Positions 10,733-28,581 of a stretch of DNA of 50,778 nt are shown one piece after another. The stretch is from a virus, in IMG/VR virus record IMGVR_UViG_3300036806_000033, positions 1-50,778 of that record; one strand, given 5' to 3'. The notes under the pieces were generated by a model. That model saw only the letters and a program-made list of their open reading frames with translations, did no database searches and was not told where the DNA came from. Within the stretch, counting starts at the first letter, position 1. Each line of letters begins with the position of its first letter. The position numbers were made by a program, and so were the translations under genes.

Positions 10733-10768
10733 AGCCACCTGGCAGACAATTGCTCTGCTTAAGTGGCT
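10733..10768 (+). promoter_or_regulatory. Stem-loop upstream of early genes
   Basis: AGCCAC pairs with GTGGCT and, inside, GCAGA pairs with TCTGC. The helix is followed by only three T, so it is more likely a leader structure than a strong terminator. Confidence 0.45.
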
Positions 10769-25637: not shown

Positions 25638-25826
25638 ATGAGTAAAACCTACGAGACTGTAAAGTGGCGTGTCGCATATAACGAGTTTGACACGTTCGAA
25701 GAAGCTAAGACTGACGCTGACAAGCGAGCTCTGAAAGATTGGGAAGATGTCCCTGTCTGGAAGACCGTTGGTGTGGCAAGGTCTGCCTTCGCGCCTACCG
25801 CAGTTACCTGGACTGACCTCCAGTAA
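25638..25826 (+). CDS. Small protein, 62 aa
   Basis: The ATG at 25638 follows AAAGGAGAGTACC; the in-frame ATG at 25566 has no site. It begins MSKTYETVKWRVAYNEFDTF, with a mixed helix-strand pattern and many Trp (WRV, DWED, VWKTV). Followed by a terminator. Function unknown. Confidence 0.7.
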   Translation: MSKTYETVKWRVAYNEFDTFEEAKTDADKRALKDWEDVPVWKTVGVARSAFAPTAVTWTDLQ

Positions 25827-25863
25827 CACCGTGGCTTGTTGGTAAAAGTAACCCTCTGTAAAT

Positions 25864-25902
25864 CGAAAGGGCATTAGCGAAAGTTAGTGCCCTTTCGTTT
25901 TC
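25864..25902 (+). terminator. Rho-independent terminator after the replication operon
   Basis: CGAAAGGGCA (25864-25873) pairs perfectly with TGCCCTTTCG (25888-25897), followed by TTTT. It would separate the replication operon from the structured-RNA region unless read through. Confidence 0.9.
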
Positions 25903-25916
25903 CAAAGGAGGAAGGA

Positions 25917-26126
25917 ATGCACGATGATGTCAGATATTACAAACGAGTCTCAGTCTGTGAAAAGGTGGCCATTCAAAAGATGGTCAGCGCAGGAAGAGGA
26001 AGACGGAGACGTGTCAAGACAGTCTTCAAATGGCAGTGTAGACCATCTATTCGCATGATCAATGAGGGTGAGTACCCAATCATGAATGAAATTCAGAAGA
26101 TCTCATATAAATTGACGATCTTCTAA
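25917..26126 (+). CDS. Small basic protein, 69 aa
   Basis: The ATG at 25917 follows AAAGGAGGAAGGA, a very strong ribosome site. It begins MHDDVRYYKRVSVCEKVAIQ and contains GRGRRRRVKTVFKWQ, an Arg-rich nucleic-acid-binding-like patch. It is the last gene before the 2-kb RNA region, only 4 nt away, so it could bind that RNA; this is inference. Confidence 0.7.
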   Translation: MHDDVRYYKRVSVCEKVAIQKMVSAGRGRRRRVKTVFKWQCRPSIRMINEGEYPIMNEIQKISYKLTIF

Positions 26127-26130
26127 CGAA

Positions 26131-26268
26131 GTAACCCCGGTAGTCCTGGCAGTATTTGTGTGCTTTTATGCACTGGCCCTGATGACTGGCGCCAGCCTAA
26201 GTCGTCCTAGGCAAAGGAGTGTAGTTGTAGCTGGATGCGCTCTATACGCACAAGGACGCCGGGGTTAC
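26131..26268 (+). ncRNA. 138-nt multibranched domain opening the RNA region
   Basis: The ends pair over ten bases (26131-26140 with 26259-26268), then after a small internal loop over five more (GTCCT 26143-26147 with AGGAC 26253-26257). Inside are GTGC/GCAC, a CTGGCGCCAG palindrome suited to kissing or dimer contacts, GCCTA/TAGGC and TGCG/CGCA. It looks like an independent folding domain. Confidence 0.7.
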
Positions 26269-27280
26269 ACTAATTCAGTTTAGGAACTGCGAAGACTGGT
26301 GAGCATTCAGCCACCGACTAGTGGTTACCTAATCCCGAGAATACCTTCACGACTATGTTAGCCAGATCACGGTCACGGTATCAGCCAGTTGTGATGCCCG
26401 CTGTCCAGTGTTGTCCAATGTAGTGCTGAGTGCGAAGATTTCTCGGCCTACCGAACCCATGGGTACGTATTAAGACCTAGATCGGCACGCGTATGTATGG
26501 CTGAAGTAGGGTGCACTCATCTGAGTGTGATGTAGGGGTGCGATCCCGCCCGTCTTGTATCCCGTGCGGTACGATGGAGGCTAAAAAGTAACTGCATTCG
26601 GGAATAGGAAAGGCCTGCTCTCCGCAGGCTATGGCAAACAGTGAGGACGTGCAGCAGGTGTTCAAAAGACAAGCCAGATAGACGTGAAAGGCGGTGAATG
26701 CCTCTAGTCAATGTGATCCTGGTAACTAGTCTTAGTAATCTTCCTAGATTTTGACAGATACAGGGCCGATTGTGCAGTTAGCCCTGCCCGTTTGGAAACG
26801 GCTGTCTTAATCATGCAGGTTCGATCCCTGCCAGTGGTGTGTAACCGCTGTGGCGTAAAAAGTCGGGGACAAGTTTGTGGTGATCCAAACACTGGCTAGT
26901 TTGGCCCCCCTAGGCAACCGTAAGGAAGATAGCATCGGCAATAAAAGTTCAAACATGAACAGGAGATCATCCCAGTCGACTGAAAACTGTCCCATGGTGA
27001 ATGGATTACAGAAAGATTGTCGACGACTCACCTTAGTAATGGATGAATGAACAAGACAAGCACGGACAAGTAAGGGTTATCCCTCGGAAATCTCATCTTC
27101 ATGAGATACCTAAGATGCTAAAAGAGCAACAGTCCATACTCGACACGGTGCCCGAAAAGGCCTTTCACCAAGAGGATTTATCCCCACCACATTAAGTGGA
27201 GTGGACTAACGTCCGCTTTAATATTGTGGACATGGATGTGCAGCTTTCATCGGGGCAGGAGACTGCTCAAACCCTGGACA

Positions 27281-27374
27281 CGCGCTAAGGGCTGAAACGA
27301 TGTTAAGTGCTCTCCTCAGTCAGTAGACCTGTTAAAAGGTTAAGGTATTGTAGGTTCGAACCCTACCAGCGCGA
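27281..27374 (+). ncRNA. tRNA-like module
   Basis: A canonical T-arm (GTAGG-TTCGAAC-CCTAC, 27350-27366) is followed by CAGCGCG, which pairs with CGCGCTA at 27281-27287 over six of seven positions; A follows at the discriminator place and CCA is not encoded. The D and anticodon arms do not fit a normal tRNA: ACCT/AGGT surrounds a GTTAAA loop, and spacing is wrong. I call it tRNA-like and not a functional tRNA. Confidence 0.5.
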
Positions 27375-27587
27375 ATGCTGATCGCTGACTTAGTATGTGA
27401 GATGGCTCGATCTAGCAACATCTAGGGAGCTTGGGTGAAACCAAGTGTCATTCAGTCTGAATAACTGAATGTTGTGGGAGTGATGAACCATCCGTGGCTT
27501 ATGACTGATCTGCTGTAGGATAATGCTCTAGTTAAATGCTTCGTAATTGGACGATGTCATGAACTGGAAAGCAAGCCCTGAAACAAA

Positions 27588-27633
27588 CTTTGGTGTATAA
27601 TAACGTTCCTCAGGTGGAATAGGAAAACCAAAG
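27588..27633 (+). ncRNA. Nested hairpin within the RNA region
   Basis: CTTTGGT (27588-27594) pairs with ACCAAAG (27627-27633) and encloses TTCCT/AGGAA (27606-27610 with 27621-27625). All 12 pairs are Watson-Crick. Confidence 0.65.
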
Positions 27634-27682
27634 CAAAAGTACCAATACCCCGTTAACTCCGCAGTGAAGTGAAGAACTAGCT

Positions 27683-27780
27683 GATGGGGATAAGAGGCTC
27701 CAGTAGCGTAAGTAGTCTGCCAAGAAAGCTGATCCCAATGTACATGATCAGTGACGGTGATGCGTTTGTACCACCCCATC
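27683..27780 (+). ncRNA. 98-nt closed domain within the RNA region
   Basis: GATGGGG (27683-27689) pairs with CCCCATC (27774-27780), with AGC/GCT pairs continuing outside a single mismatch. Inside, CTGATC (27729-27734) pairs with GATCAG (27746-27751). Confidence 0.6.
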
Positions 27781-28122
27781 TGCTACGAATAGAGGAGCAG
27801 TATAAAAGGTGTGGGAGCTAAATGTGAGATACCGTGTAGGCACGAAACGTGAAAGATAGGCCCTCCTTTACGGGCTGACTTAACCAAAGGAAGAAAATAA
27901 AGATGCCTGAGATGACATAGGAGCCATTCTAGCGGCTATTCACCTTCATCTTTAGCATAATAAAACTTCCTCGCGACTCCAAAGCACGCCAGATTAGCGT
28001 ACACTAGGAGCTAGAAGCGTGTCAGAAGTATTCAGGCTGGTAGTTTCCCAGTTCTGTCGAAAATGGCATTGGTAGCGAGAACGTTAAGTCTCGCTAAATT
28101 CCTCAAACGGAAGGAGATGAAA

Positions 28123-28191
28123 ATGGGCATCACTCTGGACATGCGAGATGAGATAACTGTTAAACAACCTTGGAGCACGGGTCCGCCTTAA
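28123..28191 (+). CDS. 22-aa ORF with a strong ribosome site (leader peptide candidate)
   Basis: GGAAGGAGATGAAA precedes ATG; the peptide is MGITLDMRDEITVKQPWSTG plus two Pro. It lies immediately after the RNA region and before hairpins that precede the gene at 28273. A Pro-Pro end may stall ribosomes, so a leader-peptide role is plausible. Confidence 0.45.
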   Translation: MGITLDMRDEITVKQPWSTGPP

Positions 28192-28194
28192 GAT

Positions 28195-28249
28195 GCTGCG
28201 CGCGTAGAACATGCCGCAGCGGGGGAGGAGGCTTAACAGCCACTCCCCC
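28195..28249 (+). promoter_or_regulatory. Two hairpins upstream of the membrane gene
   Basis: GCTGCG/CGCAGC (28195-28220), then GGGGGAG (28221-28227) with CTCCCCC (28243-28249) enclosing GGCT-taac-AGCC. The pair follows a short ORF, an arrangement known from attenuators, although no T-run is present. Confidence 0.55.
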
Positions 28250-28272
28250 CACATTCATAGGAGACTGTCGAC

Positions 28273-28581
28273 ATGAACCAACCAATCATCATAGTTCCTG
28301 GGGGACAAGGCGGGGGATACAACAATCACCCTCGTCCACCGAGACGAAGGAAGAACAGAGCTGACAAAAAAGCTGACTCTGAAAAAGAAAAGAAAAAAAA
28401 GGAAGCTGAAACTAAAAAACAGTTGCGTTTGCGTATATTTTATGCTATAAGCATTTTTGTTCTCCCACTATTCGGCATTTCTGCCGCATTCGTTCTCCTC
28501 GCCGTTGGATTAGGTGCAGTTAAACTCACAGAGATTTCTGCATATCTCCTACGACTCATAGTTAATCAATCAGCACATTGA
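28273..28581 (+). CDS. Membrane protein with charged N-terminus, 102 aa
   Basis: It begins MNQPIIIVPGGQGGGYNNHP, continues with a highly basic stretch (RRRKNRADKKADSEKEKKKK), then a hydrophobic region at about 54-95 that could hold two spans (IFYAISIFVLPLFGISAAFV). TAGGAGACTGTCGAC precedes the ATG. The stop overlaps the exonuclease TTG. Function unknown. Confidence 0.7.
   Translation: MNQPIIIVPGGQGGGYNNHPRPPRRRKNRADKKADSEKEKKKKEAETKKQLRLRIFYAISIFVLPLFGISAAFVLLAVGLGAVKLTEISAYLLRLIVNQSAH

Follow-up and report, generated by a model that had tools for sequence, protein, structure and literature searches.

The virus record IMGVR_UViG_3300036806_000033 (50,778 bases, analysed here over its whole length and called the window) has a T7/SIO1-like gene plan and contains a region of about 2.1 kilobases (kb), some 4% of the record, that very probably represents a new family of giant structured phage RNA, set in a fixed cassette with a short open reading frame (ORF), the mini-ORF, and in most cases a gene for a protein like p102 of the window. 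The RNA is lineage-specific and occupies a single fixed position in the genomes of a clade of podovirus-like phages. It possibly comprises two RNA units, a first domain (domain 1) and a core. A preliminary description of the window had proposed one or more giant structured RNAs at this position, possibly of a new family, and this proposal is borne out by the lack of an Rfam match, by homologous and syntenic regions in other phages and by covariation. The parts of the cassette are listed below, L005 (IMGVR_UViG_3300036900_000099) being the nearest relative, with a polymerase 77% identical to that of the window.

26131–26268, + strand: domain 1, an RNA domain of about 138 nucleotides (nt) closed by a 10-bp helix (26131-26140/26259-26268).
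26340–28110, + strand: core of the giant structured RNA, supported by the consensus fold with L005 and a noncoding pattern of substitutions and indels.
28111–28116, + strand: Shine-Dalgarno sequence AAGGAG of the mini-ORF, recognized by sequence.
28123–28191, + strand: mini-ORF, MGITLDMRDEITVKQPWSTGPP followed by the stop codon, ending CCG CCT TAA, of a conserved X-Pro-Pro-stop class.
28197–28250, + strand: two adjoining GC-rich hairpins between the mini-ORF and p102, kept in L005, the second with two compensatory pairs.
28273–28581, + strand: p102, a small basic protein with a C-terminal hydrophobic segment (automatic hydropathy rule).

The region is flanked upstream by a 79-amino-acid ORF ending at 26126 and downstream by the 102-amino-acid p102 starting at 28273, all on the + strand; the ORF map agrees with the earlier statement that the neighbouring genes are tightly packed on the same strand. 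The end of the region had been placed at 28094, which is too early, as the mini-ORF, which has a ribosome site, begins at 28123 and hairpins conserved in L005 reach 28250. The boundary was therefore extended to about 28250.

Synteny and distribution of the RNA region

Relatives were collected by searching a polymerase profile (A1) against IMG/VR; 165 stretches passed and 80 loci were examined. In the same position next to related polymerase genes, 64 regions of at least 1.1 kb were found, a count that includes the window and near-copies such as L028/L029, L065/L066 and L072/L073. In relatives with both flanks, the interval between the 158-amino-acid gene and the Cas4 gene was about 1.5 to 4.1 kb, small genes included. 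Outgroup intervals at the locus were 0.24 kb (L087), 0.53 kb (L088) and 0.91 kb (L089) and, measured from an assumed start where the first flank was unmatched, 0.50 kb (L084) and 0.26 kb (L085). At this locus the outgroup contigs have no room for the RNA, other parts of the outgroup phages not having been searched. Contigs L084–L089 were set apart as outgroup by interval size, and L086 ends 404 bases past the polymerase. The same interval in the named phages CRP-5 and CRP-13 is occupied by annotated genes.

In a quick maximum-likelihood tree, 55 rows that all have a region of at least 1.1 kb formed one side of a branch with a Shimodaira–Hasegawa-like approximate likelihood ratio (SH-aLRT) value of 99, and the other side held six rows, one of which (L086) is too short to judge. 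Because of internal stops in the frame read, the tree omits the polA rows L039, L041, L085 and L094. The region is kept at one place across the whole clade. Blastn similarity of the region between subfamilies was mostly limited to short blocks, and the near absence of such similarity suggests that the RNA evolves much faster than the polymerase.

Further members were sought by several routes. A search of a genome collection gave one relative, contig L094 of a Dependentiae metagenome-assembled genome. Of eight stretches containing an exact copy of one conserved hairpin, four were already-known contigs, one was a new member with flanks and mini-ORF (L097), and three had neither flanking genes nor a mini-ORF and are perhaps chance matches (L100, L102 and L103). 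No match to 25880-28300 was found among 50,697 phage records at the DNA level, and an exact 27-mer search of IMG/VR gave no further member of the window's own subfamily. Homologous phage regions had been suggested as a check on the structured RNA; homologous or syntenic regions are present in dozens of relatives, with covariation well beyond controls.

Absence of protein-coding signatures

Between the window and L005, the 588 substitutions in the core were spread evenly over the three codon positions (202/197/189), and the length of 28 of 37 indels was not divisible by three. As a control, the Cas4-like gene compared between these two phages had 66/27/102 substitutions by codon position. On the + strand of 26126-28170 no ORF of at least 60 amino acids was listed; small minus-strand ORFs were not checked one by one. 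These results uphold the earlier claim that the region holds no gene with a ribosome site, and protein-like codon conservation, which had been named as a sign against a structured RNA, was not seen in the comparison with L005. An unrecognized, perhaps recoded, protein-coding region, for which nothing speaks beyond mechanically listed short ORFs, is contradicted by the substitution counts and the frame-breaking indels and is extremely unlikely; protein coding was rejected for the core on these grounds.

Predicted folding and covariation

Folded as a single sequence, the window RNA was modestly more stable than dinucleotide shuffles, with z-scores of -2.87 for the first half (0 of 20 shuffles equal) and -2.24 for the second half (1 of 20 equal). 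Domain 1 was 87% identical between the window and L005 (128/147 aligned bases), and its consensus fold reached -115.6 kcal/mol vs -59 to -77 in 20 column shuffles, with five compensatory pairs (0–3 in shuffles) and none broken. For the core, at 68% identity, the consensus fold was -1765 kcal/mol vs -1468 to -1506 in six column shuffles, and 98 compensatory pairs were found vs 60–78 in column shuffles. In each of the three alignments tested, folding favoured the + strand over the minus strand, in line with the plus-strand preference described before. Among four helices that had been named, 26131/26259 (with compensatory changes) and 27588/27627 are kept in L005, whereas 27678/27774 and 27898/27947 are unpaired there and were rejected.

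The window/L005 consensus also predicts long-range helices in the core at 26645-26658/28169-28184, 26932-26940/27718-27763 and 27060-27066/27699-27707, which count as weak evidence because nearly all of their pairs are unchanged in L005. In L005, domain 1 and the core are separated by an inserted small ORF that has a ribosome site (L005:11275-11432) and that the window lacks. This insertion suggests at least two units. Several separate structured RNAs side by side, instead of one giant molecule, are thus conceivable, if doubtful: the insertion parts domain 1 from the core and the order of motifs differs among subfamilies, yet the predicted long-range helices connect distant parts of the core, an argument weakened by their near invariance in L005.

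Covariation was also assessed outside the window's subfamily. An alignment of seven members of one other subfamily (A3; 1717 columns, mini-ORF included) was taken from nine rows first aligned, leaving out L017, which is cut by a contig end, and the divergent L083. Its consensus fold was -441.5 kcal/mol vs -278.6 (standard deviation 10.5) in 24 shuffles keeping the gap pattern, and 129 of 312 pairs had changed on both sides vs 41–69 in shuffles. A second alignment (A5; 100 columns, 11 sequences, L030 being left out of 12) covered a module consisting of an anticodon-arm-like hairpin and a T-arm hairpin. Its covariation score was 0.709 vs 0.258, a level reached in none of 500 shuffles, and slid versions scored 0.10 to 0.14; its 10 both-side-changed pairs were reached in 9 of 500 shuffles. 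The covariance model of this module, run over 56 sources, matched L040, L078, L050 and L072 at expectation values (E) <1e-5 and L035 and L081 at E <0.01. These six loci are outside the training set, and by their offsets all the matches fall within the RNA interval. The listing at E up to 1 held 25 matches, including two at ordinary tRNAs and doubtful ones on the minus strand of L027 (E 0.087) and in outgroup contig L088 (E 0.42). The alignments show a noncoding structured RNA under selection for pairing.

Comparison with known RNA families

None of 4227 Rfam families, among which the group I/II intron and HEARO models were presumably counted, matched the window at gathering score. With permissive filters, only three sub-threshold matches (E 0.1 to 8.3) were obtained in 25800-28300, the best of which (25842-25902) falls on a terminator-like hairpin upstream of the RNA region. 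Group I/II introns and HEARO gave no Rfam match in the window or in 25800-28300. The GOLLD covariance model was likewise unmatched in the window at gathering score and in 25800-28300 at E up to 10, and the ROOL and OLE models were unmatched in the window, in 25800-28300 and in 10 relatives. No GOLLD, ROOL or OLE was detected in these 10 relatives at gathering score; their sole match above that score was an ordinary tRNA in L007, away from the region. Membership of the region in any Rfam family was thus rejected for the window and the 10 relatives. A comparison with GOLLD, ROOL, HEARO and introns had been proposed in the preliminary description, and its outcome is consistent with a new family. 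ARAGORN found no tRNA genes in the window, introns allowed or not, and neither ARAGORN nor Rfam found in it a tRNA-like domain with a free acceptor, as in transfer-messenger RNA (tmRNA). In the nine gap regions tested, ARAGORN without introns gave no tRNA or tmRNA. Searches of the open-licence literature of PubMed Central turned up no description of this RNA.

The RNA is not assigned to GOLLD, ROOL or OLE because their covariance models do not match, and further differences accompany the likenesses. Like GOLLD, it is a large ornate RNA of phages or prophages, and many GOLLD members exceed 800 nt according to the sections of PMC12286853 that bear on length. The present region, known here as a genomic region, is more than twice the typical GOLLD length and is followed by a Pro-Pro-stop mini-ORF and a membrane-protein-like gene; GOLLD often has neighbouring tRNA genes, whereas the window has none. 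ROOL is also a large phage RNA with a complex fold, and in at least one strain of Ligilactobacillus salivarius its abundance equalled that of 16S rRNA (PMC12286853, in its remarks on abundance). A homo-oligomeric nanocage is a further hallmark of ROOL and GOLLD. The solved ROOL example differs in being 659 nt long, and no comparable cassette appears in the part of PMC12286853 that describes it.

Recurrent hairpins and tRNA-like modules

Several short elements of the window RNA recur among the relatives. We take some of these hairpins to resemble the T-arm and D-arm of tRNA, and in one case tRNA-Leu, and name them accordingly.

26566–26595, + strand: hairpin with loop motif GGAGGCTAAAA (26576-26586), kept in L005 with one compensatory pair.
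26815–26831, + strand: T-arm-like hairpin 1, GCAGG TTCGATC CCTGC, with a stem identical in L005, recognized through the enrichment of its class.
26832–26868, + strand: possible capped hairpin CAGTGGT/ACCGCTG, then TGGCG..., found by eye and loosely resembling the permuted tRNA-like module seen in relatives.
27064–27074, + strand: GGACAAGTAAG motif, also in L005, L007, L008, L010 and others.
27350–27366, + strand: T-arm-like hairpin 2, GTAGG TTCGAAC CCTAC, present in the consensus fold; L005 has GGAGG/CCTCC, with one pair changed on both sides.
27986–28000, + strand: hairpin ACGC-CAGATTA-GCGT with a conserved loop, whose context is common to 16 regions.

The 64 regions contained 136 T-arm-like hairpins, compared with 12 on the reverse strand and 7–11 in first-order Markov shuffles (about 9 expected). 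Among 62 regions of at least 1.4 kb, 53 had at least one such hairpin and 44 at least two. Counting against hairpin 1 of the window, its bases are paired otherwise in the window/L005 consensus fold. In 12 other RNAs, a D-arm-like TGGCG...GGC..ACGC comes no more than 90 nt after a T-arm, an order opposite to that of tRNA; the window copy at 26832–26868 fails this strict pattern and is not in the window/L005 consensus fold. Of 16 D-arm patterns, 12 were located 12–90 nt downstream of a T-hairpin, in windows making up 6.7% of the sequence; the pattern was drawn up after viewing these data, and the near-copies L066, L073, L029, L012 and L011 were left out. The D-stem GCG/CGC has changed to GTG/CAC in three of a hand-chosen set of 12 (A2), picked from 27 candidates for clean modules. 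Long-range pairing of at least 7 bp around the T-arm/D-arm module was present in 6 of 16 cases (control mean 1.4, maximum 5), a modest excess. A general rule of a T-hairpin followed by a flush hairpin was unsupported (61/127, with controls averaging 45 and peaking at 62 and 63), and a pattern search for the permuted module returned only the contigs of L065 and L066 again.

For the other motifs, the exact 11-mer GGAGGCTAAAA was found in 10 of 33 sequence clusters (shuffle maximum 3–4), and GGACAAGTAAG at no more than one mismatch in 10 of 64 regions (shuffle mean 3.0), which is weak alone. The strict CAGATTA loop context was found once in each of 16 regions, and 14 of these sites were closed by 4 bp or more, with 11 different stems (mean of 5.4 and maximum of 10 in controls). 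The loop TCTCATTAG was found 43 times, and 26 of its copies had a stem of 4 bp or longer, with 20 different stems (mean of 2.4 and maximum of 7 in controls). In several subfamilies, a repeated AGTATCCTAGAAA hairpin element recurs beside the tRNA-like module, at L040:5082-5125, L054:11400-11450 and L072:13137-13170.

In tmRNA and permuted tRNA genes, tRNA-like elbow parts are joined to a short reading frame, as here. The present RNAs differ in having the order T-arm, capped hairpin and D-arm where the module is clean, in the lack of a free acceptor end and in a mini-ORF that has its own ribosome site.

Some tRNA-like folds were also reported by ARAGORN inside the RNA regions of relatives. With introns allowed, the program placed at L005:11730-11946 a fold like that of tRNA-Leu(gag), which contains an intron of 123 nt and overlaps the first T-arm hairpin of L005, and in L013 a tRNA-Asp-like fold; the folds at L021:12425-12496 and L056:12065-12160 are in normal order and look degenerate. 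These folds and the 136 T-arm-like hairpins would suit a decayed tRNA array, in which the hairpins are functionless remnants of tRNA genes. Such an origin is very unlikely, being contradicted by stems maintained through compensatory change, by clean modules in which the T-arm precedes the D-arm, and by the ARAGORN results in the window; it was rejected on the latter and on the covarying stems.

The Pro-Pro-stop mini-ORF

Of the 62 regions measuring 1.4 kb or more, 60 had near the RNA 3' end a Shine-Dalgarno-led ORF of 8–33 codons ending X-Pro-Pro-stop, compared with 2 of 62 on the reverse strands; the contigs of the two regions without it (L012 and L024) end before its place. The residue before Pro-Pro was Arg in 25 cases, Gln in 21, Glu in four, Met in three, Gly and Lys in two each, and Val, Ile and Asn in one each. 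The second Pro codon was CCT in 52 of 60 mini-ORFs and the stop codon TAA in 59 of 60; in the 32 window ORFs taken as genes, TAA ended 18, CCT encoded 241 of 511 prolines and none ended in Pro-Pro. Synonymous changes were seen by eye among the mini-ORF peptides of the A3 subfamily. Sequence comparison shows the fixed order of the cassette and the mini-ORF within it.

The relevant sections of PMC3834316 report that a C-terminal Pro-Pro before the stop codon arrested E. coli ribosomes in all contexts tested, and that about 30% of a Pro-Pro-stop transcript was cut at the stop codon in E. coli without tmRNA. The mini-ORF shares its Pro-Pro before the stop with E. coli YbeL-PP, where arrest and possible stop-codon cleavage occur (PMC3834316, same sections). 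YbeL-PP differs in being an altered E. coli model protein, whereas here a conserved short ORF, mostly ending in Arg- or Gln-Pro-Pro, closes a structured RNA. We infer that ribosomes stall at the mini-ORF stop.

Such stalling could instead serve a cis-acting leader, in which the RNA and the Pro-Pro-stop peptide would control p102 and the downstream nuclease genes, with stalling altering how the CCTTAA segment pairs with the ribosome site of p102. The RNA is located before p102, the mini-ORF end CCNCCTTAA resembles an anti-Shine-Dalgarno sequence, and CCT and TAA are favoured beyond coding need. Positions 28186-28195 can also pair with 28252-28261 beside the p102 ribosome site, which lends weak support because the pairs are invariant. 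Over 58 loci the corresponding pairing was strong in some and near zero in many (mean 2.4 expected pairs), the p102 ribosome sites having been picked automatically so that some may be wrong, and a structured leader of more than 1 kb far exceeds the needs of such control. On balance, a leader is somewhat improbable, both as a role of the cassette and in the mechanism proposed for it.

The p102-like protein

A downstream ORF with a strongly hydrophobic segment was found in 49 of 59 loci, window included, by the automatic hydropathy rule, whose 49 include a wrong ORF (L082) and whose ten misses include L013, which has an evident homologue. Inspection by eye of the outgroup interval in five contigs and two phages showed no comparable protein. 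No significant PHROG match was obtained for p102 and three relatives, and no significant Pfam match for p102 and one relative. In the loci looked at, a GC-rich hairpin lies between the mini-ORF and the gene for the protein of about 100 residues. Homologues of p102 (e.g. L025, L041, L044 and L055) have N-termini rich in consecutive prolines, an echo of the mini-ORF Pro-Pro. A tandem repeat of about 113 nt (72.6% identical) lies among small ORFs before the p102 homologue of L005 (L005:13410-13870).

Possible function of the cassette

The commonest immediate downstream neighbour of ole is oapA, encoding a membrane protein whose basic patch binds RNA, and OapA is needed to bring OLE RNA to the membrane (PMC12265935, in its account of the ole locus). 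As in the OLE system, where a membrane-protein gene follows (PMC12265935, same account), the large structured RNA here is mostly followed by a gene for a membrane-protein-like product, and p102 might likewise bind the RNA. OLE differs in being about 600 nt long and bacterial. We tentatively propose that the phage RNA may form a membrane ribonucleoprotein (RNP) through p102, as OLE does through OapA, with a ribosome stalled by Pro-Pro-stop at the RNA 3' end. In such a model the giant RNA would fold into an RNP, and p102 would hold the RNP at the inner membrane, the part that OapA plays for OLE RNA. The Pro-Pro-stop would stall the terminating ribosome at the RNA 3' end, and the stalled ribosome would guard this end or help to set it. 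As for the effect of the RNP on the host, ribosome capture or takeover of host translation would be a first guess. A more specific version, in which the kilobase RNA, built partly from permuted tRNA-like elbows, a ribosome that it loads on its own 3' end and that is held there by [R/Q]-Pro-Pro-stop, and a p102-like tether make up a membrane-bound RNA-ribosome complex during infection, seems a long shot.

Several points weigh against the RNA family and its membrane model. In E. coli with tmRNA the full-length Pro-Pro-stop transcript predominates, by the same sections of PMC3834316 as above, which tells against a role of stalling in forming the 3' end. OapA has four predicted membrane helices and p102 is too short for four; the membrane segment of p102 is predicted from hydropathy alone, and a net charge of at least +3 before the hydrophobic segment was found in only 35 of 59 loci. 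The window's own subfamily comprises two sequences only, the window and L005, and the A5 covariance model, searched up to E 1, had no match in the window and a weak one in L005 (E 0.45). As few bases can be aligned between subfamilies, the case for their common descent is made by synteny, shared motifs and one module. The transcript, with its ends, is a prediction from sequence, and RNA affinity of p102 is putative.

The chief rivals of the membrane RNP model are the cis-acting leader and a ribosome-capture RNA, and the computations do not separate them. In the latter, each RNA copy would stall one ribosome on the mini-ORF, the tRNA-like modules would dock and host ribosomes would be sequestered. 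A stall-type ORF at the RNA 3' end and modules resembling the T-arm and D-arm would fit this role, and a ribosome pull-down with GOLLD is mentioned in the cryo-electron microscopy paper on ROOL and GOLLD (PMC12286853, as far as that mention goes). Against it, the acceptor ends of the tRNA-like modules are capped and one ribosome per RNA demands a very abundant RNA; we regard it as unlikely.

The functions of GOLLD, ROOL and OLE are poorly understood, and a further family would be valuable because this RNA comes with two handles, a stall-type peptide and, mostly, a small membrane-protein-like gene. Binding, localization and ribosome stalling are approachable with cloned parts, which makes the function of giant phage RNAs an approachable question.

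Other features of the genomes

Genes identified in the window comprise those for terminase, primase-helicase, family A DNA polymerase and an internal virion protein, together with a Cas4-domain exonuclease and an endonuclease. Ordinary tRNA-Leu(taa) or tRNA-Ile(gat) genes lie upstream of the polymerase in L007, L008, L011, L026, L034 and L036, and likewise in L056, L061, L072, L075, L081 and L082. A terminator-like hairpin with a T-rich tail (25864-25903) precedes the 79-amino-acid ORF of the window, and L005 has a similar one near 10740.

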